Assembly: GCA_029242085.1 (NCBI GenBank) | Contig: JAQWUP010000065.1 | Location: 62,001 to 126,000 of the forward strand | Reading direction: 5' to 3' | Length of the DNA: 64,000 bases | From: Porticoccaceae bacterium | GTDB lineage: Bacteria > Pseudomonadota > Gammaproteobacteria > Pseudomonadales > Porticoccaceae | Notes under the pieces: model-generated | Databases searched by the model: none | Told to the model about the DNA's origin: nothing | The model's input: only the letters and a program-made list of their open reading frames with translations | Position numbers and translations under genes: made by a program | Shown here: positions 32,422 to 45,035 of the stretch, piece by piece | How positions within the stretch are numbered: the stretch's first letter is position 1 | Layout: each line of letters starts with the position of its first letter

Positions 32422-33126
32422 CAGGCTGTTGCAAAACGATTTCCTCAGCACTTAACCCAGCTCGCCAGGCAATAACCTCAACCCCAGCAGCTATGGCCTG
32501 TACCATAGTCTGGGCATAGGCGGGGTCAAGTTCTGCCGCCACCTCGACTCGCTCGACCCCAGATAGCTGTACACAGAAAAACAATACGGCACGATGTCCT
32601 GCGGCAACCATCGCCATTAACTCGCGCAAATGTTTGGCACCACGGCTGGTTACAGCATCTGGGAACATGGCCAAACCATCACCCATATCCAGAGTGACAT
32701 TTTGACCTCCACGTAGCACAGCCCCTGAGCGGAGTCTTGATCCCCCAACAGCAGATCAATACGGCTTTTTTCCTCACCATAACGAACCTCTGTGCGCAAT
32801 TGCTGGTAACCACGCAGCTCGGGAACCAAACCCGCCTCAATCGCTTCCCGTGCCAGATGATTCGGCCTTGAGGTATTCACCCCCGCTAACTGGCCATAGC
32901 TGGTCGTCACAATCTCCAAAGTCCCCGGCAGCTTGCGTTTGGGATTGTCCGACAATGAATACCAGCACGGCGAACCCTCGACCTGACAGTTCTTCATGGA
33001 TCCGGTATTGGGGCAGTGCAAGGTAATAATATTGCCCTGCTGATCACGCACATCGGCAAAAAACCGCTTGTAACGCTTGATAAACGTGGCGGGAAAGAAC
33101 GCCGGAATATTTTTCATCGATGTCAT
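32384..33126 (-). pseudogene. sfsA: Sugar fermentation stimulation protein SfsA, frameshifted
   Basis: SfsA is a putative DNA-binding, nuclease-like protein. The N-terminal ORF ([37 protein letters not shown]) and the C-terminal ORF ([25 protein letters not shown]) together make a complete SfsA of about 245 residues. They join exactly at CYVEVKNVTL if one A is added to the AAAA run (TTTT at 32700-32703 on the plus strand). ATG 33126 is chosen; 33117 is possible. This is either a recent null or a homopolymer sequencing error. Confidence 0.85.
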
Positions 33127-33253
33127 TGACCCCAAGTTAAAAAGAAACATCTCGCCGCCGTAAATGATCGGTGAGTCGCGAAATTTTACAATAATGATCT
33201 ATTATTAGTTGGCTGATAAATGAATTTTTATACTGCCCGAATGGAAATTTTCC

Positions 33254-33282
33254 TTGATATGTTGGTCGAAAATCTCTATAAC
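33254..33282 (+). promoter_or_regulatory. Sigma70 promoter of dksA with GC-rich discriminator
   Basis: TTGATA (33254-33259), a 17-nt spacer and TATAAC (33277-33282), followed by GGCCAGTCCCG. The GC-rich discriminator is the kind associated with negative control by ppGpp and DksA, which suggests autoregulation; this is inference. The start codon is about 40 nt downstream of the predicted start site. Confidence 0.65.
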
Positions 33283-33328
33283 GGCCAGTCCCGTTTTTTT
33301 AGCTTAGAACCAACAACGGATTTTATAA

Positions 33329-33817
33329 ATGTCAACAACGAAAGAAAAAGTAGTAAAAAAACCAGCTGCCAAGCCCAAAGTAGCAGCTAATTCAGCCTCG
33401 GTAACTCTTCACGGTCTCGCTCCCTATGTGGAGAAGAAAAACGAAGAGTATATGAACGAAAATCAGCGTGAACATTTTAAGCTGATTCTCAAAGCCTGGC
33501 GTCTTGAACTTATGGAGGAGGTTGACCGCACGGTTTCTCATATGAAAGATGAGGCGGCAAATTTTCCAGACCCAGCTGACAGAGCAACCCAAGAAGAAGA
33601 GTTTAGTCTTGAGTTGCGAACCCGCGATCGCGAGCGCAAGCTTATCAAGAAAATTGATAAGACATTATTGCGCGTCGAGGAGGACGACTATGGTTTTTGC
33701 GACCAATGTGGTGTCCATATTGGCATTCGCAGGCTTGAAGCTCGTCCCACTGCAAATCTATGTGTGGATTGCAAAACACTTGATGAAATCAAGGAGAAGC
33801 AGATTACGGGCGGCTGA
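33329..33817 (+). CDS. dksA: RNA polymerase-binding transcription factor DksA
   Basis: 162-residue DksA, which enters the RNA polymerase secondary channel and works with ppGpp. The coiled-coil spans about residues 45-115 and carries the [11 protein letters not shown] tip; the zinc finger is [17 protein letters not shown]...CVDC with all four cysteines, so this is the zinc-bound type. The N-terminus is Lys/Ala-rich, longer than in E. coli. It is followed by gluQ in the order conserved in pseudomonads. Confidence 0.96.
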
Positions 33818-33874
33818 TTTTAGCCGCACATATGTCTGTGCTGACTTCAGCACAGACTGCTCTGCCTCTTGTCT

Positions 33875-34771
33875 ATGTCAGCCTTGAGTAACATCGGGCG
33901 CTTCGCCCCCTCCCCTACAGGGCCGTTACACTTTGGTTCTCTGGTCAGTGCTCTGGCGAGCTATCTAGATATTAAAAAGCGCCGCGGCCAATGGTTAGTG
34001 CGAGTTGAAGATATTGATCCGCCCAGAGAAGTGCCGGGGGCCAGCGCGACTATTTTGCAGCAACTCGACGCCCATGGGCTGCACTGGGATGGGGATGTTC
34101 TCTATCAGAGTGAGCGCTTACCCGACTATCTGGCCGCCCTGGAACAGCTTGCACACAAGGACCTGACCTATTACTGCACCTGCAATCGCCAGCGCATGCA
34201 GACCCTGGGCGGTATCTATGACGGTCACTGCCGCGACTTGCAGCTAGCCGACAAAGACAGCGCCATACGCCTCAATGTGGGTGACACTGACAGGGGTCAT
34301 CAACAGTTTACCGATCTTATTATGGGAGACTACCAGCAGTCTTTGCGCACTGAGGTGGGCGATTTTGCCTTGCGCCGACGGGATGGGTTGTTTTCCTATC
34401 AATTAGCCGTGGTGGTCGATGACCATTATCAGGGTATCACCCATATTGTGCGCGGCTCGGATTTACTCGACTCAACACCCAGACAACTCTATCTGCAACA
34501 ATGTCTGGGTTACCAGCGACCTGAGTATATGCATCTGCCGGTGGCACTCAACACCGATGGGCAAAAGCTCAGCAAGCAGAATCATGCTGCGGCACTGGCC
34601 CCCGGCAACGAAGCTCATAATCTTTACACCGCGCTAGTATGGTTACAGCAACAACCGCCAGCCGAGCTAGCCTATCTTTCCGTCAGTGAGATACTGGGCT
34701 GGGGTATTACTAACTGGGCAATATCAAAAATCCCCAGTACCATGGGTATGAGTGCACCGGACAGGTTTTGA
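33875..34771 (+). CDS. gluQ: Glutamyl-Q tRNA(Asp) synthetase
   Basis: Truncated glutamyl-tRNA synthetase that charges glutamate onto queuosine 34 of tRNA-Asp. Class I motifs are APSPTGPLHFGSLVSALAS (HIGH equivalent HFGS) and DGQKLSKQN (KMSKS equivalent KLSKQ). Zinc ligands are in TYYCTCNRQRM and DGHCRD. 298 residues, no anticodon domain. ATG 33875 is preferred over the tracked TTG 33869. It lies 57 nt after dksA. Confidence 0.94.
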   Translation: MSALSNIGRFAPSPTGPLHFGSLVSALASYLDIKKRRGQWLVRVEDIDPPREVPGASATILQQLDAHGLHWDGDVLYQSERLPDYLAALEQLAHKDLTYYCTCNRQRMQTLGGIYDGHCRDLQLADKDSAIRLNVGDTDRGHQQFTDLIMGDYQQSLRTEVGDFALRRRDGLFSYQLAVVVDDHYQGITHIVRGSDLLDSTPRQLYLQQCLGYQRPEYMHLPVALNTDGQKLSKQNHAAALAPGNEAHNLYTALVWLQQQPPAELAYLSVSEILGWGITNWAISKIPSTMGMSAPDRF

Positions 34772-34869
34772 TGCAATCCTGAGATAGGCCTCTAAGGGGT
34801 TTGCTTTGCGCCTCCGGCTTGCATAACATCGACAGCCTATTTACGACTGATGAACCAATAACCCCAGCT

Positions 34870-35046
34870 ATGCTTAATTATCGCCTTGTCGCCACTCTTT
34901 TACTGCTTTGCACCGTGGTTTTTCCACTGGCAACCCAGTGGGCCCTAGAGTCAGATGGCAGCTGGTTCAGACCTTTCGTGGTTTGGGCCATGGTGGTGTT
35001 TGCATCTTACATTGTGCAGCGCGGCAGGAAGTTCGATGAATCTTGA
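34870..35046 (+). CDS. cbrX: Small membrane protein upstream of cbrA (CbrX-like)
   Basis: 58-residue protein with two hydrophobic segments (YRLVATLLLLCTVVFPLA and PFVVWAMVVFASYIV) and a basic end. The track starts at TTG 34801; ATG 34870 gives a natural small membrane protein. A short gene at the same place before cbrA is known in Pseudomonas as cbrX, where it couples translation of cbrA. Here its end overlaps the cbrA start by 11 nt. I name it by position and form; sequence similarity cannot be checked here. Confidence 0.65.
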   Translation: MLNYRLVATLLLLCTVVFPLATQWALESDGSWFRPFVVWAMVVFASYIVQRGRKFDES

Positions 35047-37900
35047 GATAGCCCTATCAACGCTATGTATGCTGGTTCTGGCAGTCCTAATCACGCGATT
35101 TCTAGCTCAGCGCGGCAGCGCAGACAATCATCTGGTTTTGGTGCTGGCATTATTTTCCGGTACTGGCGCGCTAATGGCTATGGGTTCGATCGAGATGGCC
35201 GGACGTTATGGCTACAGTGTTATTTTGGCGCTGATTGGCTTTACCCTTATTTTTGTTTTCTCACCCTTGATATTCCTGCCAATTCGCAGACTCAGCCAGA
35301 TTATCCGCTTCTCCACACCCGTAGATTTCTTGACCTTTAGATACCGTGGCAAAGGTGTTGCCGCAGTCGCCTGTGTCAGTTTAATTGTGATCGCTATTCC
35401 ATTGATTTTGGCCCAGCTGTTAGCGCTGGACTCAGTGATTAATTTTCTATTTGGCCAGTCCCTCTACTACCTGCCACTGCTCGCTATCGCAATTATTTTT
35501 CTCAACCGTCGCTCCATTCAGATAGGTGTGGTTAATCATTTGAGTTGGATTATGGCAGCAGCAGGATTACTGCTGATTCCAGCGCTTGGGCTGGCGGCCT
35601 GGACATCTATTCAATCGATCTTCGGCAGCATTGGCGAGATGAATACCTGGGTCATCGACAGTGGTCAGCGCTTTGTGGTGCAGCGCATGGATTCATCCTA
35701 TAGCCTGTTCACTATTTTTCTGGCCGCAAGTTTTGCTCTGCCAATTAATTTTAGTATTTTGGTCTCTGAAAATATTTCTGACCGCCAGGCAAGCACCACC
35801 GCCTGGGCCTACCCGCTGCTGATTCTACTGGCCTGTATTCCCGTATTCCCGCTGTTGTGGAGCGGTATTGCCGTTCGGTCTTCATCACCGCTGCAAGAAT
35901 ACCTATTCGCCCTGCCAGCACTGACCGAACATCCTATTATCGCGGGTCTGGGTGCCGCGAGTATTATTCTGTTGGCCGTTGCTCTGATCTGCAGCCTGAC
36001 CCTTACAGTGTCCAAAATAACGCTTAATAGCTTTCTATTACCAGGTAAAAATCTAGCCCAGCAAAAGGCCCTCGGTGACTGGATCAATAACCGCCAGATG
36101 ATTATCGCGGCGGCCTTACTGATTGCCTGCTTGCTGCTCAGCCTGATCGTCAAGGGGCGCAGTATTACCGACTTTTATCTCGTCGGACTGAGCGGCTTGG
36201 CACAGCTGACACCGGGAATGCTGGCAGTGATCTATATTCCTAAAGCTAACCGTCTGGGCTTTATAGTCGGCCTTACCGCCGGCATGTTCCTGTGGCTGAT
36301 GACGCTGGCGATACCCCTGCTGTTTGGTGACTGGGGGTTGTATCTGCCATGGCTGGACAAGACCCTCAGTTTTGGTATGCAAAACTGGAATATTTGGGCC
36401 GTCGAAGCACTGCTGCTGAATATAACGCTAAGTACCATTTTTTCTGTCTACGGCAAGATGAATGAAAAAGAAGAATATTATGCCGCTGTGTGCATGGCCG
36501 ACAATGTCTATATCCCGGCACGTACTGAGATCAGCCAAAAGTCGGTGACCGAGCTGCAACAGAGCCTGCGCCTTTCACTCGGCGATGCCGCAGACAGCGA
36601 AATAGACCAGGCACTCGAAGCGACTGGCTGCGACCAGTCTGAAGTTCGCCCCGGGGCACTGCGCAAGATTCGCGATAGCATCAATGCCTCTTTAAATTTG
36701 CGCTACGGTGTCCTTGCCGCCAGTAGAATTATGCAGCAGGCGATGCCGGTTAATCTGATCGCCAATAGAGATCCGGATAATATTTATTTGATTGAGTCGG
36801 TGCTCGCCATTCATGGGGGTCGCCTGACTGGTATTGCCAGCGAGCTAAACAAGTTGCGTGTTCACCACCGCGAAATTTTAGACAACTTGCCCATAGGTAT
36901 CATATCCATCGATCAAACCGGTGAAGTACTCAAGTGGAATGCGACAATTTCGGATTACACAAGTATCAGCGCCGAAATCGCCACCGGAGGTTCTATCAGT
37001 GATCTGCCAGAACCCTGGTGCAGCGCAATCAATACGTTTATTGACAGTGGTCAGACATATCTCGACAGCCTGCGTCTGGAGCTAGGCGCTGAGGTGCGCT
37101 GGTACAGCTTGCAAAAGTCCGTTGAACAAAATATCGAAGGTGCCAGCACCGAGATTATTCTATTAATCGAAGATCAAACTGAGTCGGTAATCTTGACTCA
37201 AAACTCCATCGATAATGAAAGATTGGCCTCAGTCGGCAGACTGGCCGCTGGCGTTGCCCATGAAATTGGCAATCCTGTCACTGGTATTGCCTGTCTGGCA
37301 CAAAATTTACAGCATGAAACCGAACCCGATCAGATTGCTGAATCGGCGCAACATATTCTGTCCCAGACCGAGCGTATAGACCGCATCGTTCAGTCATTAA
37401 TTAATTTCTCGCGCGGTGATCGAGCGCTGCAGAAGCCGGTGCAGCGAGTCAATCTGTATGATGCTGCCAATGAAGCTATCCAGCTGTTGACCATGAGTAC
37501 GGCAAAACCTGAGATCAAATATATCTGTGATATCGACAGTCAATTGCTTATCACCGGTGACTACCACCAACTTATTCAGGTTTTTCTAAACCTGCTCAGC
37601 AATGCACGAGACGCCTCCCCAGTGGATAGCCAGATTATTATCAGTGCAACCATCGAAGTAGAGCAGGTTCGAGTAACGATAAGCGACTATGGCACTGGCA
37701 TTGCAGAGGGTATTTCAGGTCGGTTATTTGAACCCTTTGTAACCTCTAAAGAGCCAGGTCAGGGCACCGGACTAGGACTCTGGGTGGTATTTAATCTGGT
37801 ACAGCAGCTAGGTGCCGAGATATCAATGTCCAGTCCCGCAGAAAATAGTGACTGTGGCACTACTGTGGCTCTGTGTTTTCCACTATCATCGCGCCCATGA
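35036..37900 (+). CDS. cbrA: Transporter-fused sensor histidine kinase CbrA
   Basis: 954-residue sensor: an N-terminal SLC5-like region with about 12 membrane spans (residues 1-480), a linker/STAC region (about 490-600), PAS (about 625-720), then the kinase core. H box is AAGVAHEIGNPVTGIACL, N box LNLLSNARDAS, G boxes SDYGTGIAEG and GQGTGLGLWVV, all intact. CbrA senses carbon/nitrogen status in pseudomonads and its transporter part can bind histidine. The ORF track starts at 34955; ATG 35036 has AGGAAG 5 nt upstream. Its TGA overlaps the cbrB ATG (ATGA). Confidence 0.9.
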   Translation: MNLEIALSTLCMLVLAVLITRFLAQRGSADNHLVLVLALFSGTGALMAMGSIEMAGRYGYSVILALIGFTLIFVFSPLIFLPIRRLSQIIRFSTPVDFLTFRYRGKGVAAVACVSLIVIAIPLILAQLLALDSVINFLFGQSLYYLPLLAIAIIFLNRRSIQIGVVNHLSWIMAAAGLLLIPALGLAAWTSIQSIFGSIGEMNTWVIDSGQRFVVQRMDSSYSLFTIFLAASFALPINFSILVSENISDRQASTTAWAYPLLILLACIPVFPLLWSGIAVRSSSPLQEYLFALPALTEHPIIAGLGAASIILLAVALICSLTLTVSKITLNSFLLPGKNLAQQKALGDWINNRQMIIAAALLIACLLLSLIVKGRSITDFYLVGLSGLAQLTPGMLAVIYIPKANRLGFIVGLTAGMFLWLMTLAIPLLFGDWGLYLPWLDKTLSFGMQNWNIWAVEALLLNITLSTIFSVYGKMNEKEEYYAAVCMADNVYIPARTEISQKSVTELQQSLRLSLGDAADSEIDQALEATGCDQSEVRPGALRKIRDSINASLNLRYGVLAASRIMQQAMPVNLIANRDPDNIYLIESVLAIHGGRLTGIASELNKLRVHHREILDNLPIGIISIDQTGEVLKWNATISDYTSISAEIATGGSISDLPEPWCSAINTFIDSGQTYLDSLRLELGAEVRWYSLQKSVEQNIEGASTEIILLIEDQTESVILTQNSIDNERLASVGRLAAGVAHEIGNPVTGIACLAQNLQHETEPDQIAESAQHILSQTERIDRIVQSLINFSRGDRALQKPVQRVNLYDAANEAIQLLTMSTAKPEIKYICDIDSQLLITGDYHQLIQVFLNLLSNARDASPVDSQIIISATIEVEQVRVTISDYGTGIAEGISGRLFEPFVTSKEPGQGTGLGLWVVFNLVQQLGAEISMSSPAENSDCGTTVALCFPLSSRP

Positions 37901-39180
37901 GCATCCACAGTAAAAACATCCTGATTGTTGAAGACGAGGAGATTATCCGCTCTTCGCTGCGCAAACTACTGGAGCGGAATAACTACATAGTCAGTGATGC
38001 CGTCAGCGTCAAAGCGGCCCGTGAGTCTTTTAATCTCAATAGCTTTGATTTAATTATTAGCGACCTGCGACTTCCAGGTGGCCCGGGAACAGACCTGATT
38101 AACCCGGCCAATTGTGTGCCTGTGCTGGTGATGACCAGCTATGCCAGCCTAAGGTCGGCAGTTGAAACCATGCGTCAGGGCGCCGCCGACTATATCTCTA
38201 AGCCGTTTGATCATGATGAGATGCTTGCCGCAGTTAAACGCATCATCAATGAATCCAAGCAAGATATTGATTTAGCCATTGCAGAAAATAAGCTGCTTAT
38301 GGGCTGTAGCCCAGAGATTTTAAAGATTTTACGCACCATTGATAAGGCGGCCCCAACCTCAGCGCCGGTGATTATTCAGGGTGAGAGTGGCACCGGTAAA
38401 CGGATTATTGCCGAGATTATTCACCGTGCCAGCGCCGCCGCCGAGCAGACGTTTACCGCCATTAACTGCGCCTCTGTGAACGCCGTGCAATTTTCTCAAC
38501 AGCTGGAACAGTTAACCGAGAAAGTCACCGGCACATTGTTTCTAGCCAATATTTGCGAACTACCTGCCGCACTGCAGTCTCAGGCGTTACAGGCCATTCA
38601 GCAGCACAGTGATATGCGCTGTATTGCTTCGACTGTAAAAGACCTGCAGGCACTGAGTCAGAGCGGGAAATTCCGCAAAGACCTGTTTTACAGCCTCAAT
38701 GTCGTCAGTATTCAGGTGCCAGCACTGCGCCATCGCGCCACAGATATTCCTAAATTAGCCGAGTATTTTCTCGATCAGTATTCAGCCGAACTGGGTACTC
38801 GCCTCGAATTGTCCGCAGATGTGCATCCGGTGCTGGCCGAGCACAGTTGGCCCGGCAATGTGCGTGAGTTACAGAACATGCTCTATCAGGGCGCGATTCT
38901 GTCAGAGCCGGGGCAAGCTATTACTCCGCATATTCTCGGCATGGGCTATATCGACGATCAACGGGAGGAAGAGGCTGACGGCACTCCCAGCCAACCGGCG
39001 ACCAACAGCGATGCCCCTACAGGGCTGTCTCTGGAGGACTACTTCACCAGTTTTGTGTTAGAAAATCAGGAAAATATGAGTGAAACTGCGCTCGCGCAAA
39101 AGCTTGGCATTAGCAGAAAATCCCTCTGGGAGCGGCGCAATAAGCTGGGAATTAGCCGTAAAAAGTCAGATTCAGCCTAA
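37897..39180 (+). CDS. cbrB: CbrB-type response regulator with degenerate AAA+ domain
   Basis: 427 residues: receiver (about 8-125; VEDEE, phospho-acceptor in IISDLRLPGG, SKPFD intact), NtrC-like AAA+ domain and a C-terminal Fis-type helix-turn-helix (SETALAQKLGISRKSLWERR). Walker A GESGTGKRII is present, but the GAFTGA sigma54 loop is missing: the sequence goes from NCASVNAVQFSQQLEQLTEKV straight to GTLFLANICELP. Walker B, GTLFLDEI in the family, is GTLFLANI, the sensor-I Asn is Val (IASTVKDL), and YRLN is YSLN. It is about 50 residues shorter than usual CbrB. It probably cannot activate sigma54 polymerase and may act as a sigma70 regulator or repressor. 4-nt overlap with cbrA. Confidence 0.88.
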   Translation: MSIHSKNILIVEDEEIIRSSLRKLLERNNYIVSDAVSVKAARESFNLNSFDLIISDLRLPGGPGTDLINPANCVPVLVMTSYASLRSAVETMRQGAADYISKPFDHDEMLAAVKRIINESKQDIDLAIAENKLLMGCSPEILKILRTIDKAAPTSAPVIIQGESGTGKRIIAEIIHRASAAAEQTFTAINCASVNAVQFSQQLEQLTEKVTGTLFLANICELPAALQSQALQAIQQHSDMRCIASTVKDLQALSQSGKFRKDLFYSLNVVSIQVPALRHRATDIPKLAEYFLDQYSAELGTRLELSADVHPVLAEHSWPGNVRELQNMLYQGAILSEPGQAITPHILGMGYIDDQREEEADGTPSQPATNSDAPTGLSLEDYFTSFVLENQENMSETALAQKLGISRKSLWERRNKLGISRKKSDSA

Positions 39181-39218
39181 GCTACAAGGTTATTCAGCGA
39201 TCTTTGTTTCAAAAAGTA

Positions 39219-39243
39219 ACAGTTAGCTGTCTGAGACAGTTAG
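39219..39243. promoter_or_regulatory. Palindrome with repeated ACAGTTAG, candidate regulator site
   Basis: CTGTC-TGA-GACAG lies between two direct copies of ACAGTTAG (39219 and 39236), about 75-100 nt upstream of the predicted small-RNA start. The place fits an upstream activator site for the adjacent CbrB-like regulator. It follows the cbrB stop by about 40 nt. No experimental link; inference from position and symmetry. Confidence 0.35.
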
Positions 39244-39294
39244 TCGGAAAATAAACTCAAAAAACGCTTGTAGCCAGCGTATTTCTAATTAGAA

Positions 39295-39310
39295 TGGCTA
39301 AACCAAGGCA
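39295..39310 (+). promoter_or_regulatory. Sigma54-like promoter element
   Basis: TGGCTAAACCAAGGCA keeps TGGC and GCA with GG and GC exactly 10 nt apart, as in TGGCACN5TTGCW, but departs from consensus at other positions. It lies just before the A-rich start of the candidate small RNA. A competing sigma70 element is the perfect TATAAT at 39344-39349, which has no good -35. Confidence 0.4.
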
Positions 39311-39320
39311 AGGTCTTGAG

Positions 39321-39443
39321 TAATAATAACAATAAAAAATAATTATAATTGGATGGATTGCAAAAGTGTTCTGGGGGTTATAGCTTTAGGGCTCGAACTT
39401 TAAGAACCATTGAAAGGGATTGTCCTCAGGACAATCCCTTTTT
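39321..39443 (+). ncRNA. Candidate CrcZ/CrcY-type small RNA between cbrB and pcnB
   Basis: The 429-nt gap between cbrB and pcnB has no ORF but ends a transcript with a perfect terminator at 39413-39443, 167 nt before pcnB. Downstream of a sigma54-like element is AATAATAACAATAAAAAATAA, which contains overlapping AANAANAA motifs of the kind Hfq/Crc bind in catabolite repression. In pseudomonads the CrcZ RNA lies in this same interval and sequesters Hfq/Crc. Here the RNA would be only about 120 nt and the motifs sit at its 5' end, so it is shorter than CrcZ (about 400 nt). Position and elements support it; family membership is inference. Confidence 0.45.
39413..39443 (+). terminator. Strong Rho-independent terminator
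   Basis: AAAGGGATTGTCC-TCA-GGACAATCCCTTTTT: a perfect 13-bp stem with a 3-nt loop and a five-T run. It ends the candidate small RNA and isolates pcnB from cbrAB read-through. Confidence 0.92.
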
Positions 39444-39609
39444 ACTTTTAGGCTTTTGATAAATTTTCGCTAAGGCTCTGGTTAAACTATCGCTGGTGAG
39501 CTGCATAAACATCCCGCGGCTCCCCTCATTATCACTGCAAACCAACCTCCACTGTTGCCCAATCCTCTGTTAGACTGGCGTCTTTAAATTATCTATCGGC
39601 ACGCTGTAC

Positions 39610-40962
39610 ATGCTGGAAATCATTAGTAGGTTCTTCGATAAGAGTCAGGCTCAAAGAGATGCTGGCGACCCGGTTATCGTCAGCGCCCAATACCACTCAC
39701 TATCACCTAAAATGATCAGCCGTGATGCGCGCCGAGTCGTCGATGTATTGCAGGATGCAGGCTACGAGGCCTACATTGTTGGTGGCGCAGTCCGCGACCT
39801 GCTGCTGGGACTTAAAGCCAAAGATTTTGATGTGGCCACTAACGCCAAACCCGCCGAGGTAAAGTCGTTATTTAGACGCTCGCGTATTATTGGCCGTCGC
39901 TTTCAGATTGTGCATGTGCAATTTAGCCGTGAGATTATTGAAGTCACGACATTCCGCTCCAATGAAACCAAATCCAACGACAAGAGAAAGAACCACCGTC
40001 AACAAACCGATAGTGGCATGCTCACCCGCGACAATGTCTTTGGCAGTTTGAATGATGATGCCAGTCGCCGAGATCTGAGCATAAACGCTATGTACTATGA
40101 TCCGGGCGATAACAGCATTCATGATTTTGCCGAGGGTCTGGACGATATAGAAAAACGGGTTATTCGCATTATGGGTGACCCCGCGACCAGATTTCGTGAA
40201 GACCCTGTGCGGATGCTGCGCGTGGTTCGTTTTGCGGCCAAGTTGGGCTTCAATATAGAAAACCGCACTGGCAAACCCATGCATAAGTTGGCGACGGATC
40301 TAGAGCATGTTTCACCGCCAAGATTATTTGATGAAACCCTCAAATTGTTTATGAGTGGACAGGGACTCGCCTCTTTTTGGCTGCTCAATGAGTACGGCCT
40401 GTTCGAGCGTATCGTGCCGCAAATTGGCAATATGATGAAAGACCGCAATAGTCTCACCAGTAAACTGGTTGAGCAGGCATTCACCAATACCGATCTGCGT
40501 ATTCGCGCCGAAAAACGTGTTACGCCAGCATTTATCTACGCTGCACTGCTGTGGCCTGCTGTGCAAAAGCTTGCTGCGCATTATCGCGATCGCGGCAATT
40601 CACCCTCCTATGCTTTGAGCAAAGCCTCAGGCGAGGTGATCGCCCGACAGATATCTATCACCGCAATTCCCCGGCGCTTTACCATGCCAATGCGTGAGAT
40701 CTGGGATTTACAACTGCTACTGCCACGCCGAGGCGGGCATCGCGCCAAGCGGCTTATTGAACATCCGCGCTTTCGAGCGGCCTATGACTTTGTGCTACTG
40801 CGAGAGCAGGCCGGTGAGGAACTGAGCGGCCTCGGCGACTGGTGGACTGCCTATCAGGATGCCAGCGACGAACAGAGAGAGCATATGGCTCGCTCTGTGG
40901 GTGATCCCGGTAAAAATCGCAAGCGACGCAATCGGCGCAAACCTAAACCCGCCGCTGAGTAG
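39610..40962 (+). CDS. pcnB: Poly(A) polymerase I
   Basis: 450-residue class II nucleotidyltransferase that adds 3' A tails and marks RNA for decay. The active site is YIVGGAVRDLLLGLKAKDFDVAT (G-G-x-V-R-D and DxD), followed by RRDLSINAMYYD and the ERDPVRMLRVVRFAAKLGF-like segment REDPVRMLRVVRFAAK. The tail is Arg/Lys-rich (KNRKRRNRRKPKPAAE), as in E. coli PcnB. tRNA nucleotidyltransferase is the alternative, but length, tail and folK neighbour favour pcnB. The ribosome-binding site is weak. Confidence 0.93.
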   Translation: MLEIISRFFDKSQAQRDAGDPVIVSAQYHSLSPKMISRDARRVVDVLQDAGYEAYIVGGAVRDLLLGLKAKDFDVATNAKPAEVKSLFRRSRIIGRRFQIVHVQFSREIIEVTTFRSNETKSNDKRKNHRQQTDSGMLTRDNVFGSLNDDASRRDLSINAMYYDPGDNSIHDFAEGLDDIEKRVIRIMGDPATRFREDPVRMLRVVRFAAKLGFNIENRTGKPMHKLATDLEHVSPPRLFDETLKLFMSGQGLASFWLLNEYGLFERIVPQIGNMMKDRNSLTSKLVEQAFTNTDLRIRAEKRVTPAFIYAALLWPAVQKLAAHYRDRGNSPSYALSKASGEVIARQISITAIPRRFTMPMREIWDLQLLLPRRGGHRAKRLIEHPRFRAAYDFVLLREQAGEELSGLGDWWTAYQDASDEQREHMARSVGDPGKNRKRRNRRKPKPAAE

Positions 40963-40969
40963 TCAACCA

Positions 40970-41458
40970 ATGGCTGAGGTATATATTGGGCTGGGCAGTA
41001 ATCTTGAAGACCGTGGCGACAGTCCCGAAACCCAGCTGGATCGAGCAATAGAGAGTATTTCCCAACATCCAGCTATCAGTCTGATAGCTGTCTCATCGCG
41101 CTACCAAACCAAAGCCATAGGGCCTGGAAATCAGCCTGACTATATCAATGCTGCAGCCCGCCTTAGCACCGCATTATCACCGCTGGACCTCCTCGACGCC
41201 CTGCAGCAGATAGAGCATCAGCAGGGTCGCGTGCGCACCATTCGCTGGGGAGCCAGAACCCTCGATCTGGATATTTTGCTCTACAACAATCAGGTAATCG
41301 ACAGTGAACGACTCAATGTGCCTCACCCAAGAATGCATGAACGCGCATTTGTGCTCGCGCCTCTGCGTGATTTAGACGCCAGTATTGAGCTTCCCAGCGG
41401 TGAAAGTATCCTCAACCTATTGGCAAACTGCTCGGACCAAGGTATCGTAAAATTATAG
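40970..41458 (+). CDS. folK: 2-amino-4-hydroxy-6-hydroxymethyldihydropteridine pyrophosphokinase
   Basis: HPPK of folate synthesis, transferring pyrophosphate from ATP to the pterin. 162 residues: YIGLGSNLEDRGD at the N-terminus, RTIRWGARTLDLDILLYNN (the RWGxRTLDLDIL signature) and VPHPRMHERAFVLAPL. The ORF track starts at 40859; ATG 40970, 7 nt after the pcnB stop, is the real start. Confidence 0.95.
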   Translation: MAEVYIGLGSNLEDRGDSPETQLDRAIESISQHPAISLIAVSSRYQTKAIGPGNQPDYINAAARLSTALSPLDLLDALQQIEHQQGRVRTIRWGARTLDLDILLYNNQVIDSERLNVPHPRMHERAFVLAPLRDLDASIELPSGESILNLLANCSDQGIVKL

Positions 41459-41491
41459 GTTCGGTAACGGTCAACACAAGTGGAGAGCAAT

Positions 41492-42193
41492 GTGGAACAG
41501 AGTAGTATCAGTGATTTAACGTTTGATCTATCTGCGTCTACCATTCCTAGTTACATTGCTATAGAAGGCCCAATAGGAATTGGCAAAACCACATTAGCCA
41601 AGCGCCTGGCGCAAACATTTAACTATGAAACACTGCTAGAAGAAGCTGACGAAAACCCTTTCTTAGAACGCTTTTATCAGGACCGCCGTGCCAATGCACT
41701 GCCAACTCAGCTGTATTTCTTGTTTCAGCGCATGCGCAAACTTCAGGACCTGCGCCAGGGCGATATTTTTCAGCAGGTTCGCATATCGGATTTTTTAATC
41801 GACAAAGACCCGCTATTTGCTCAGGTAACTCTGGATGACGATGAGTATCGTCTCTATCAAAATGTCTACGACAATATTATTACCGACCTACCCAAACCAG
41901 ATTTGGTTATCTATCTGCAGGCCCCGACCGAAACCCTCTATGACCGTGTACAGCGCCGCGGCACAGCAATAGAGAGACCTATTGAGCAGTCCTACCTCCA
42001 ACAGTTAAACGATGCCTATACCCAGTTCTTTTACCATTATGACGATACGCCGTTACTGATCGTTAACACCGCAGAAATTAATCTGGCCGAAGGTGATCTC
42101 GATTACAATAATCTGGTGAGATACATCCTGCAGACAAAATCTGGCCGCCATTACTACAATCCTCACCCGATAGCTCGAGCGGCTGCGGGTTGA
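41492..42193 (+). CDS. Deoxynucleoside kinase
   Basis: 233-residue P-loop kinase of the deoxyadenosine/deoxyguanosine kinase family: IAIEGPIGIGKTTLAKRLA (P loop), LLEEADENPFLERFYQDR, the DRVQRRGTAIER lid segment. It phosphorylates deoxynucleosides for salvage; base preference cannot be read from sequence. The start is GTG 41492 with GGAG 6 nt upstream; the tracked GTG 41480 lacks a site. It sits between folK and panB. Confidence 0.87.
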   Translation: MEQSSISDLTFDLSASTIPSYIAIEGPIGIGKTTLAKRLAQTFNYETLLEEADENPFLERFYQDRRANALPTQLYFLFQRMRKLQDLRQGDIFQQVRISDFLIDKDPLFAQVTLDDDEYRLYQNVYDNIITDLPKPDLVIYLQAPTETLYDRVQRRGTAIERPIEQSYLQQLNDAYTQFFYHYDDTPLLIVNTAEINLAEGDLDYNNLVRYILQTKSGRHYYNPHPIARAAAG

Positions 42194-42263
42194 TCGCTTG
42201 TCATAATCGGTGAAACCCAGTAACGTGGCCGACTCAGAGACTTATTGAGGCTTAATCTCCACA

Positions 42264-43055
42264 ATGAAAACCACCACCATTAGCAGTTTAATTGCGATGA
42301 AAGCGGCCGGCGACAAGTTTGCCGTAATCACCGCCTACGACTATACCTTTTCAAGGATGATTGAGACCGCCGCCATTGAGGTGACATTGGTCGGTGACTC
42401 ACTGGGCAATGTGATTCAGGGTCGCGACAGCACCATTCCAGTCACTGTTGACGAAATGGCCTATCACACCGCCGCAGTAAAGCGTGGCAACAGCCGCACA
42501 TTGCTAATGACAGATATGCCTTTTATGTCCTACGCCACTGAGGCTCAGGCGCTGGATAATGCCGCCACACTGATGCAGGCCGGTGCGCAAATGGTTAAAT
42601 TAGAAGGTGGTGAATGGCTTGCCGACAGCATTTATATGCTCACCGAGCGCGGCATTCCCGTCTGTGGCCATGTTGGCCTGACCCCACAGTCAGTGCACAA
42701 GCTTGGCGGCTACAAAGTACAGGGTAAAGAGGAAGAGGCAGCAGCAAATATGATTGCTGAAGCCAGAGTACTTGAAGAGGCAGGTGCCGACTTAATTGTT
42801 GTAGAATGCGTGCCCTCGTCTCTCGGCCGCCAGCTATCTCAAGCACTGACAATACCAGTGATAGGCATTGGCGCCGGCCCAGACACCGACGCTCAAGTCC
42901 TGGTGCTACATGATATGTTAGGGATCTCCCAGCGCCTGCCCCGCTTCTCACGCAATTTTCTTGAATCGTCCTCCAGTGTTCAGGATGCTATTACCGCCTT
43001 TGGCACTGCAGTGCGCGACGGCAGCTTTCCGGCCGCGGAGCACTGCTTTAAATAA
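42264..43055 (+). CDS. panB: 3-methyl-2-oxobutanoate hydroxymethyltransferase
   Basis: First committed step of pantothenate and CoA synthesis. 263 residues with ITAYDYTFSRMIE, VGDSLGNVIQGRDSTIPVT (metal and substrate site), PFMSY, VKLEGG, CGHVGLTPQSV and GIGAGPDTDAQVLVLHDMLG. In pseudomonads panC follows, but here the next gene is a glutathione peroxidase, so panC must lie elsewhere or be missing. Confidence 0.96.
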   Translation: MKTTTISSLIAMKAAGDKFAVITAYDYTFSRMIETAAIEVTLVGDSLGNVIQGRDSTIPVTVDEMAYHTAAVKRGNSRTLLMTDMPFMSYATEAQALDNAATLMQAGAQMVKLEGGEWLADSIYMLTERGIPVCGHVGLTPQSVHKLGGYKVQGKEEEAAANMIAEARVLEEAGADLIVVECVPSSLGRQLSQALTIPVIGIGAGPDTDAQVLVLHDMLGISQRLPRFSRNFLESSSSVQDAITAFGTAVRDGSFPAAEHCFK

Positions 43056-43088
43056 CCCATTCAAATAAGACTAAAAAAGAGATTGACC

Positions 43089-43568
43089 ATGGCTACATCC
43101 ATATATGACTTTAGCGTACCTACCAGCAGCGGCGATGAAAAAGCCCTGCAAGACTACAATGGCAAGGTGTTGCTGATTGTTAATACCGCCAGTAAATGTG
43201 GCTTTACACCTCAGTACGAGGGTCTGCAGGCGCTCTATGATCAGTACCATGAGCGCGGTCTGGTGGTTATTGCCATGCCCTGTAATCAGTTTGGCAAGCA
43301 GGAGCCTGGCAGCAATGCTGAGGTGCAGGAATTTTGCCAGATCAACTATGGTTTGAGCTTTCCCGTGATGGGAAAAATTGATGTTAATGGTGCCAACCGG
43401 CACCCACTTTACAGCTACCTGACCGAACAGGCTGGCGGCCTGATCACCGACGGTATCAAATGGAATTTCACCAAGTTTTTAGTCGGCCGAGACGGCCAGG
43501 TAGTTAAGCGCTTTGGCAGTATCAGTAAACCTGAGGCCATCGCCGCAGATATTGAAAAACTGCTCTAG
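43089..43568 (+). CDS. Glutathione peroxidase-like peroxidase
   Basis: 159-residue thiol peroxidase. The peroxidatic Cys is in NTASKCGFTPQYEGL (Cys, not selenocysteine), with the Gln of PCNQFGKQEPG and the Trp of IKWNFTKFLV completing the catalytic set. No second Cys in the usual PHGPx-type resolving position is obvious apart from QEFCQINYG. Cytoplasmic, no signal peptide. ATG 43089 is preferred over the tracked TTG 43083. Confidence 0.92.
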   Translation: MATSIYDFSVPTSSGDEKALQDYNGKVLLIVNTASKCGFTPQYEGLQALYDQYHERGLVVIAMPCNQFGKQEPGSNAEVQEFCQINYGLSFPVMGKIDVNGANRHPLYSYLTEQAGGLITDGIKWNFTKFLVGRDGQVVKRFGSISKPEAIAADIEKLL

Positions 43569-43580
43569 CCGCGGAGTCTT

Positions 43581-43606
43581 GATATGCCAGCCCGGACTGG
43601 CATATC
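43581..43606. terminator. Hairpin between convergent peroxidase and symporter genes
   Basis: GATATGCCAG-CCCGGA-CTGGCATATC is a perfect 10-bp inverted repeat in the 46-nt gap between two convergent genes. No T tract, so it may act with Rho or as an mRNA end. Confidence 0.5.
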
Positions 43607-43614
43607 GAGTTGCA

Positions 43615-44994
43615 CTACTGGTTCTTCAGCGCAGTAAAGTAAGCCTTGGCAGCCTTGTTTACCTGAGGCGCCAAATACAGCGCTGAAATCATAGTCGGAA
43701 TCGCCATAGTCGCGTAGGACGCCAGAATTAAACCATTAACAATATCCAGAGACACCACTGCACCAACCACCAATAGGCCCAGATAGATCGGTGAATAATA
43801 GTATTGCCGTTTCACACCGAACAAGAATCCCATACATTTAACGCCATAGAACCACATGGTAACCATGGTGCTAAAACTCAGCATACCAACCATAATCAAA
43901 AGTAAGTAGATGCCGGTATTTGGGAATACCTGCTCGATCGCGCGGGCAGTCATAGTGACGCCCTGAAGACCGGCTTCAGTTTGCCAGACACCGGTCAGCA
44001 AAATAATTAATGCGGTGCAGGTACAGACCACCAAGGTATCGATGACCGGCCCGATCATGGCCACAACACCCTCGCGAATAGGCTGCGCTGTTTTAGCCGC
44101 ACCATGAGCCAGAGACTCAGTACCTATGCCGGCTTCATTACTAAACGCACCACGGCGCACACCAATTAGAATCACCGCACCAATAGAGCCACCAGCGGCA
44201 GCCTCACCGGTAAAGGCATCGCTCACAATTAACCACAGCATGGCGGGAATATCAGCGGCATAGCTATACAATACCGTCACTGTCATCAATAGATACATGA
44301 TCACCATGGTCGGCACCAAACGCACCGTCAGGCGCCCGATACTCTGAATTCTGCCAGCCACAACCATGGCCACCAATGTCGCCACTATTGAGCTGGCAAC
44401 CAGATCAAAGGTGAAATGCTGTTCACTGGTAGCCCAGCCGGCGGGAATAGCCACCACATCGCGAAGCAGCTGAATAAACTGATTAGCCTGAAAAAGGGGC
44501 AGCGCACCAATTAGACAGGCCGCTGCAAAAAGCGCCGCCAGTGGATACCAGCGCTGTCCCATCCCCTGAGTAATCACATACATAGGACCACCATGAACTG
44601 TGCCCTCGGCGTCTTTGCCACGATACATAACGGCAAGAGAGGCGGTATAAAACTTGGTGGCCACACCGACAATCGCTGTGACCCACATCCAGAACACCGC
44701 ACCCGGGCCGCCAATACTGATGGCAATTGCCACCCCGGCAATATTGCCTAGACCTATGGTGCCAGAAAGTGCCGTCGCCAAAGCCTGAGAATGCGGAATG
44801 TGCCCCGGGTCATTGGGGTCGCTGAACTTACCGCGCAACAAATCAACGCCATGACCGAAATAGCGATAGGGCTGCAAACGTGAGTAGAACATAAAGAAAA
44901 CACCGCCACCGACCAGCAAAATTACCAGCGGAGTACTCCACATCATATCGGCCCAGGCGTTAAAAAAGTCTTCGAGTTGCTGCAGTGAAATCAT
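43615..44994 (-). CDS. Sodium:alanine symporter, AGCS family (copy 2)
   Basis: 459-residue inner-membrane carrier of the same family as the gene at 25-1455. Family blocks are LSGTIGLGNIAGVAIAISIGGPGAVFWMW, GGPMYVI and SNEAGIGTESLAHGAAKT. The sequences of the two copies differ widely (different C-termini and linkers), so this is an old duplication or separate subfamilies. Predicted Na+-coupled uptake of small neutral amino acids. fur lies just upstream on the same strand, 41 nt away. Confidence 0.9.
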   Translation of the reverse strand: MISLQQLEDFFNAWADMMWSTPLVILLVGGGVFFMFYSRLQPYRYFGHGVDLLRGKFSDPNDPGHIPHSQALATALSGTIGLGNIAGVAIAISIGGPGAVFWMWVTAIVGVATKFYTASLAVMYRGKDAEGTVHGGPMYVITQGMGQRWYPLAALFAAACLIGALPLFQANQFIQLLRDVVAIPAGWATSEQHFTFDLVASSIVATLVAMVVAGRIQSIGRLTVRLVPTMVIMYLLMTVTVLYSYAADIPAMLWLIVSDAFTGEAAAGGSIGAVILIGVRRGAFSNEAGIGTESLAHGAAKTAQPIREGVVAMIGPVIDTLVVCTCTALIILLTGVWQTEAGLQGVTMTARAIEQVFPNTGIYLLLIMVGMLSFSTMVTMWFYGVKCMGFLFGVKRQYYYSPIYLGLLVVGAVVSLDIVNGLILASYATMAIPTMISALYLAPQVNKAAKAYFTALKNQ

Positions 44995-45035
44995 GGCAGG
45001 TTGTTCTTTTTATTAAAGGGGGAGTAGACCGCAAT

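Follow-up and report, generated by a model that had tools for sequence, protein, structure and literature searches.

In the SAR92 clade of marine Porticoccaceae, the response regulator CbrB of the CbrAB two-component system has, with near certainty, lost its ability to activate sigma54-dependent transcription, and we consider it probable that the protein now acts on sigma70 promoters. We analysed this system in a 64,000-nucleotide stretch (the window) from a metagenome-assembled genome (MAG) of a Porticoccaceae bacterium (assembly GCA_029242085.1, contig JAQWUP010000065.1, positions 62,001 to 126,000). Coordinates below are window positions, and all features lie on the + strand. The MAG spans 2.19 Mb and is 83% complete; its relatives by CbrA are the SAR92 clade genomes HTCC2207, H921, H231 and MOLA455, also Porticoccaceae. 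The locus has the order dksA-gluQ-cbrA-cbrB-pcnB, with a CrcZ-like small RNA (sRNA) in the gap between cbrB and pcnB. The assignment to CbrB follows from the position of cbrA-cbrB between gluQ and pcnB (gene order and kinase domains tested) and from a conserved receiver and a CbrB-type Fis helix-turn-helix (HTH) domain.

CbrB has lost the machinery for sigma54 activation

The cbrB gene (37897–39180) encodes a response regulator of 427 aa, composed of a receiver domain, a degenerate AAA+ domain and a Fis-type HTH, and its start and the cbrA stop share 4 nt. The AAA+ remnant (38293–38931) has lost its L1 and L2 loops and its catalytic residues. Walker A is kept as GESGTGKR (38380–38403), a deletion lying between NCAS and GTLFLANI (38476–38529) has removed the L1 loop that would carry GAFTGA, and Walker B reads GTLFLANI instead of GTLFLDEI, with DE changed to AN (38530–38553). 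FRKDLFYSLN (38671–38700) stands in place of FRxDLxYRLN; the second candidate arginine finger has changed from R to S, and thus one candidate finger is lost. These four observations had been made in an earlier, sequence-only reading of the window, and all of them hold. A second deletion was overlooked there: near residues 236–241, the pre-sensor-I (L2) insertion has been shortened by about 12 residues. Its claim of a lost sensor-I Asn was mistaken: in SAR92 CbrBs the ATHR of this region has become ASTV or ASTx, but the corresponding residues of intact CbrBs from other families are ATHRD or ATHRN, so no sensor-I Asn existed to lose. Of the hallmarks of a sigma54 enhancer-binding protein, the window CbrB retains Walker A and lacks the GAFTGA L1 loop, the Walker B DE and a complete set of candidate arginine fingers. 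The NtrC-type fold is still recovered for the remnant (AlphaFold pLDDT 78, then Foldseek).

The rest of the system appears intact, as that reading had stated, judging from conserved motifs and low dN/dS. In the receiver (37906–38250) the phosphorylation site D56, the acid pair, T80 and K102 are intact, and the HTH (39025–39153) is near-invariant, with dN about 0 in close pairs. The histidine kinase CbrA (35036–37900; 954 aa; Pfam HisKA/HATPase_c) has intact kinase motifs, and H742 and its neighbouring residues are invariant in an alignment of six species, one AAA-less species among them. Its membrane part, which gave no Pfam match, we take to be an SLC5-type transceptor. Closely related species whose receiver is intact give dN/dS values of 0.03–0.12 for the receiver (pairs within the genus, with CbrA intact as well), about 0–0.1 for the HTH and 0.07–0.34 for the AAA+ remnant, compared with 0.024 for an intact AAA+ domain. 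By these ratios the remnant is relaxed yet under real purifying selection. Loss of sigma54 itself as a general cause was ruled out: rpoN, whose presence the sequence-only reading had proposed to check, is found in the window genome and retained in 45 of the 47 genomes of the genus, so that CbrB alone has been uncoupled.

The loss is shared across the clade and the AAA+ domain was excised repeatedly

We found CbrA in most of 76 relatives and read the adjacent CbrB in nearly all of these; across the order, an HTH probe detects CbrB in 347 of 392 genomes. No SAR92 (HTCC2207 genus) CbrB that is readable through the domain, those of isolates included, has GAFTGA, the L2 loop or the Walker B acid pair. 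The degenerate state occurs in independent MAGs, in the isolates H921, H231, HTCC2207 and MOLA455 and in a single-contig genome. It is shared by LSUCC0057, an isolate of a sister genus, g33, and by Ww380 of the same genus. Intact proteins occur elsewhere in the Porticoccaceae, in genera g31 (G125, G286, G343) and g32 (G227), and all 23 CbrBs read from other families of the order carry GAFTGA, GAFSGA or GSFTGA together with the Walker B DE. When mapped onto a tree of CbrA and PcnB, GAFTGA was most simply lost once, at the base of the clade uniting LSUCC0057 and SAR92.

In several lineages the AAA+ domain is missing altogether, leaving a protein of about 185 residues that consists of the receiver, a short linker and the HTH. 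This form occurs in g34 (G410), the MAGs UBA2618 and FRAM18_bin288, the SAR92 genomes G017/G033/G018 and G006/G020, and G154 of g32. On the same tree they represent at least four independent complete excisions (G017+G033+G018; G006+G020; G410+UBA2618+FRAM18_bin288; G154), three of them inside the LSUCC0057+SAR92 clade and the fourth in G154, whose sister G227 is intact. A short CbrB frame in G329 was rejected as a further case, being cut by the contig end. The receiver and HTH are under strong purifying selection in AAA-less species as well (HTH dN near 0). In one SAR92 subclade (G004/G011/G013/G019/G022/L127) the Walker A Lys has become Arg. The loss of sigma54 activation, which the sequence-only reading had deduced from the window, is near certain from these sequences, because the whole genus lacks L1, L2 and the Walker B acids, the Walker A Lys is replaced in one subclade and the domain is absent in several lineages.

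Two further states of the locus were observed. Two genomes, G005 (L166) and G010 (L164), have lost CbrA and keep an orphan CbrB. Its receiver, which no longer has the acid pair and the Lys, is degenerate, as is its AAA+ domain, and its HTH is conserved. A clean deletion has removed cbrAB from between gluQ and the sRNA in four reduced SAR92 genomes of 1.2–1.7 Mb (G043, G014, G035, G008; L271–L274), which retain the sRNA and a sigma70-type promoter.

The adjacent sRNA has changed its promoter type

The CrcZ-like sRNA (39300–39443) comprises a 5' hairpin, a AATAATAACAATAA A-rich core, a GGATGGATTGC motif and a rho-independent terminator (39413–39443). The hairpin is backed by 9 pairs with compensatory changes. 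A covariance model matches the sRNA once in 34 of 47 SAR92 genomes and matches weakly at this locus in Porticoccaceae with an intact CbrB; an Rfam scan of positions 33000–45000 gave no match for it up to E 1. The RNA resembles CrcZ/CrcY in its position between cbrB and pcnB and in its several A-rich Hfq/Crc-type AAN motifs. It differs in its promoter, which is sigma70-type with a CbrB-like site rather than sigma54-dependent with upstream CbrB sites. An Hfq gene is present in the genome, and by analogy with CrcZ the sRNA probably titrates Hfq. CbrAB and an A-rich sRNA-like sequence with TGTTAC/GTAACA half-sites also occupy this locus in many other families of the order (L050–L072).

Promoters were called by alignment and anchored search; the A-rich core of the sRNA led a simple sigma70 scorer astray. 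In the window, the sRNA is preceded by the sigma70-type promoter TTGTAG-N16-TAGAAT (39268–39295), and at most loci without the activator machinery the GGAT motif is preceded, at a distance of about 83 bp, by TTGNNN-N16/17-TANAAT. Among loci with an intact CbrB, 19 of 25 (16/22 in the outgroup, 3/3 in Porticoccaceae) have the sigma54 pattern TGGCAC-N5-[AC]TGC[TA] ahead of the sRNA. After loss of the machinery, a sigma54-type promoter is found at 2 of 36, namely in G154 and as one off-position match (Fisher 9e-9, kinship not corrected for). The sigma54-like match in G013 (L084) was not accepted as a promoter: it does not lie at the position homologous to the relatives' promoter, and we took it as chance.

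A compact palindrome lies in apparent helical phase upstream of two sigma70-type promoters

Upstream of the sRNA promoter lies a putative CbrB site, TGTTTC-AAAAA-GTAACA (39205–39221), whose half-sites are those of Pseudomonas CbrB, which binds TGTTAC-N12-14-GTAACA-N15-19-GTAACA (PMC8871633). The exact pattern TGTTWC-N5-GTAACA occurs twice in the window genome and once or twice per genome in 15 relatives, and a reversed-pattern control gave zero in all but one of these. The exact palindromes listed in the 15 relatives lie at the sRNA and/or a TonB operon. A looser scan allowing two mismatches returned matches below its control, and only the exact form is informative.

The second site precedes a DUF3450-ExbB-ExbB-ExbD-TonB-TPR operon beside folA. 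In G000, TGTTAC-N5-GTAACA is found about 190 bp upstream of this operon (G000:C72:51606-51622; L281, G000:C72:45500-52500). The operon palindrome is present in nearly all SAR92 genomes checked, the tested AAA-less species among them, and also occurs in G227 and G154. In G227, where CbrB is intact, the operon has no sigma54 promoter, so that a role of CbrB at sigma70 promoters may predate the loss. The palindrome is absent at the operon in G008, without CbrAB, and in G005, with its degenerate receiver; at the sRNA, G005 and G010, the two genomes with an orphan CbrB, both carry a perfect TGTTAC-N5-GTAACA.

At the sRNA, the start of the palindrome lies 62–63 bp before the -35 element in the window clade, 53 bp in G002 (a one-base variant) and 74 bp in LSUCC0057. 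At the TonB operon, the distance to the -35 element is 63–65 bp in SAR92, AAA-less species included, and that to the -10 region is 82–84 bp in SAR92, 92–93 bp in the LSUCC0057 group and 72 bp in the intact G227 and in G154 (the last hand-counted). The lineage shifts at these two unrelated promoters come to about -10, +10, -10 and +11 bp, which are whole helical turns.

Proposed mechanism and alternative explanations

Starting from the losses, the change of promoter type, the conservation of the sites and their spacing, all of which are read from sequence, we infer phosphotransfer, DNA binding, the direction of regulation and the contact with RNA polymerase as follows. CbrA would phosphorylate the intact CbrB receiver. 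Phosphorylated CbrB, probably dimeric, would use its Fis-type HTH to bind TGTTWC-N5-GTAACA at a site centred at about -89 relative to the transcription start. From one face of the helix it may then act on sigma70 RNA polymerase in a class-I-like activation, perhaps via the alpha C-terminal domain. The predicted targets are the adjacent CrcZ-like sRNA and the DUF3450-ExbB-ExbB-ExbD-TonB uptake operon. We favour this account, in which phosphorylated CbrB regulates sigma70 promoters as a dimer in a class-I-like manner, and regard it as probable. The AAA+ remnant may serve at most as an oligomerisation scaffold, discarded completely several times to yield RegA/PrrA-like receiver+HTH proteins. In the likely history, an ancestral CbrB served two promoter types, sigma54 at the sRNA and sigma70 at the TonB operon; the sRNA promoter would then have turned sigma70-type and the AAA+ motor decayed. 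To the broader proposition, that an NtrC-type regulator repeatedly turned RegA-type through decay and excision of its AAA+ domain, with a sigma54-to-sigma70 switch at the sRNA, and that an ancestor acting with both sigma factors enabled this, we assign an even chance.

Several observations weigh against class-I-like regulation by CbrB or narrow its basis. G154 is a real exception, its CbrB lacking the AAA+ domain while the sigma54 promoter of its sRNA is intact; either the AAA+ loss there is recent-looking and has left the promoter stranded, or another enhancer-binding protein has taken the promoter over. Four genomes keep the sRNA after complete loss of CbrAB, and the sRNA promoter can thus work without CbrB. 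Conversely, the sRNA is gone from the 89–166 nt cbrB-pcnB gap in a clade that keeps CbrAB (G046, G038, G023, G039, G041, G044, G036; L093, L098, L101–L105), where the covariance model finds no copy elsewhere. No recognisable palindrome precedes the sRNA in many SAR92 lineages, all AAA-less ones among them. The p value of about 0.0005 for the four spacing shifts (uniform-phase simulation) describes a small sample picked after inspection, and the joint loss of CbrAB and the operon palindrome is tested by two genomes only. We assign the palindrome to CbrB, as its presumed binding protein, from half-site identity and distribution.

The sequence-only reading, which was confined to one gene and covered neither the sRNA and its promoter switch nor the complete AAA+ excisions nor the second target, had offered two outputs, control of sigma70 promoters or a DNA-bound switch. 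The first is now independently backed by the promoter change at the sRNA and the helically phased CbrB-like sites, and stays conditional. The second, in which DNA-bound CbrB blocks or modulates sigma70 promoters as a repressor or passive phospho-switch and activates nothing, is unlikely in our judgement. Repression by GAFTGA-less NtrC-type proteins is known from Caulobacter NtrC at hvyA and sciP (PMC10274813), and an sRNA promoter that is near consensus and persists without CbrAB would suit such a role. The sites, however, are found some 89 bp ahead of the transcription start, helically phased rather than placed over the promoter, which is the usual geometry of an activator.

The palindrome could instead belong to another transcription factor; CbrB itself would then be decaying and on its way to being lost, and what function it retains would be unrelated. 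The missing sRNA palindrome in many species that keep CbrB, the deletion of CbrAB from reduced genomes and the faster evolution of the AAA+ remnant would fit. The strong purifying selection on receiver and HTH, which extends to AAA-less species, argues against decay, and the half-sites are identical to tested Pseudomonas CbrB subsites. The absence of the operon palindrome from G008 and G005 also speaks for CbrB; an apparent exception, G029, as a CbrAB-less genome keeping the palindrome, was discarded, its contig ending exactly at the locus. We consider this explanation quite improbable.

There is very little to recommend continued sigma54 activation through a non-canonical loop of the degenerate domain. 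In its favour, most species retain Walker A, the fold persists and rpoN is present. Against it stand the loss of the two loops that contact sigma54 and of the Walker B acids, the Lys-to-Arg change in Walker A of one clade, the complete absence of the domain elsewhere, and the disappearance of the sigma54 promoter from the flagship sRNA target. Finally, an assembly or annotation artefact, a deletion in a single MAG that its 83% completeness might suggest, is refuted by the same state in all readable SAR92 CbrBs, cultured isolates and a single-contig genome, a sharing that excludes chance or assembly error.

Relation to known regulators and significance

The SAR92 system shares with Pseudomonas CbrAB-CrcZ/CrcY the gene order dksA-gluQ-cbrA-cbrB-sRNA-pcnB, what we take to be an SLC5-type CbrA, the receiver and HTH of CbrB, the TGTTAC/GTAACA half-sites and an A-rich sRNA at the crcZ position. 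In contrast to the Pseudomonas system, its CbrB is without sigma54 activator machinery, its sRNA stands on a sigma70-type promoter, the site is a single compact N5 palindrome, and the sRNA is only about 145 nt long, with no Rfam match in the scanned part of the window.

NtrC-type proteins that lack GAFTGA and act with sigma70 include Rhodobacter capsulatus NtrC and HupR, Caulobacter NtrC, Vibrio cholerae VpsR, and Escherichia coli TyrR and DhaR (PMC10274813, PMC3162934). SAR92 CbrB resembles them in having lost the L1 GAFTGA loop, in its predicted retention of DNA binding and in its proposed shift to sigma70 promoters. Caulobacter NtrC requires its AAA+ domain and Walker A/B residues, and R. 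capsulatus NtrC requires ATP binding (PMC10274813). SAR92 CbrB differs from this group in that Walker B is also lost, the domain has been excised repeatedly and the target promoter has changed along with the regulator.

With RegA/PrrA/ActR, the AAA-less CbrB shares the architecture of a receiver, a short linker and a Fis-type HTH in about 185 aa. In sequence it matches the small receiver+HTH structure 3rqi over nearly its full length; Foldseek with its model (pLDDT 70) returned many receiver-HTH proteins, a match that is not specific. Unlike these regulators, however, the AAA-less form arose from CbrB by AAA+ excision, being orthologous to NtrC-type CbrB by position and HTH, and its partner kinase is CbrA, not RegB/PrrB. 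Our literature search returned no report of repeated complete AAA+ excision coupled to a sigma switch of the target in a CbrB. This combination thus appears to be new, and sigma70-acting NtrC-type regulators without GAFTGA are known already.

Arguments about the conversion of sigma54 regulators to sigma70, and about the origin of small receiver+HTH regulators such as RegA, have so far drawn largely on end points. Here a single family tree carries one orthologous regulator in its intact, degenerate and excised states, together with matching states of the target promoter, in a group of abundant marine heterotrophs, SAR92, of which several isolates exist (H921, H231, HTCC2207, MOLA455). CbrAB with a CrcZ-like RNA is widespread outside the Pseudomonadaceae, contrary to a 2022 review that called CbrAB unique to that family (PMC8871633). 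In SAR92, the proposed regulon of two targets would tie carbon sensing to TonB-driven uptake.

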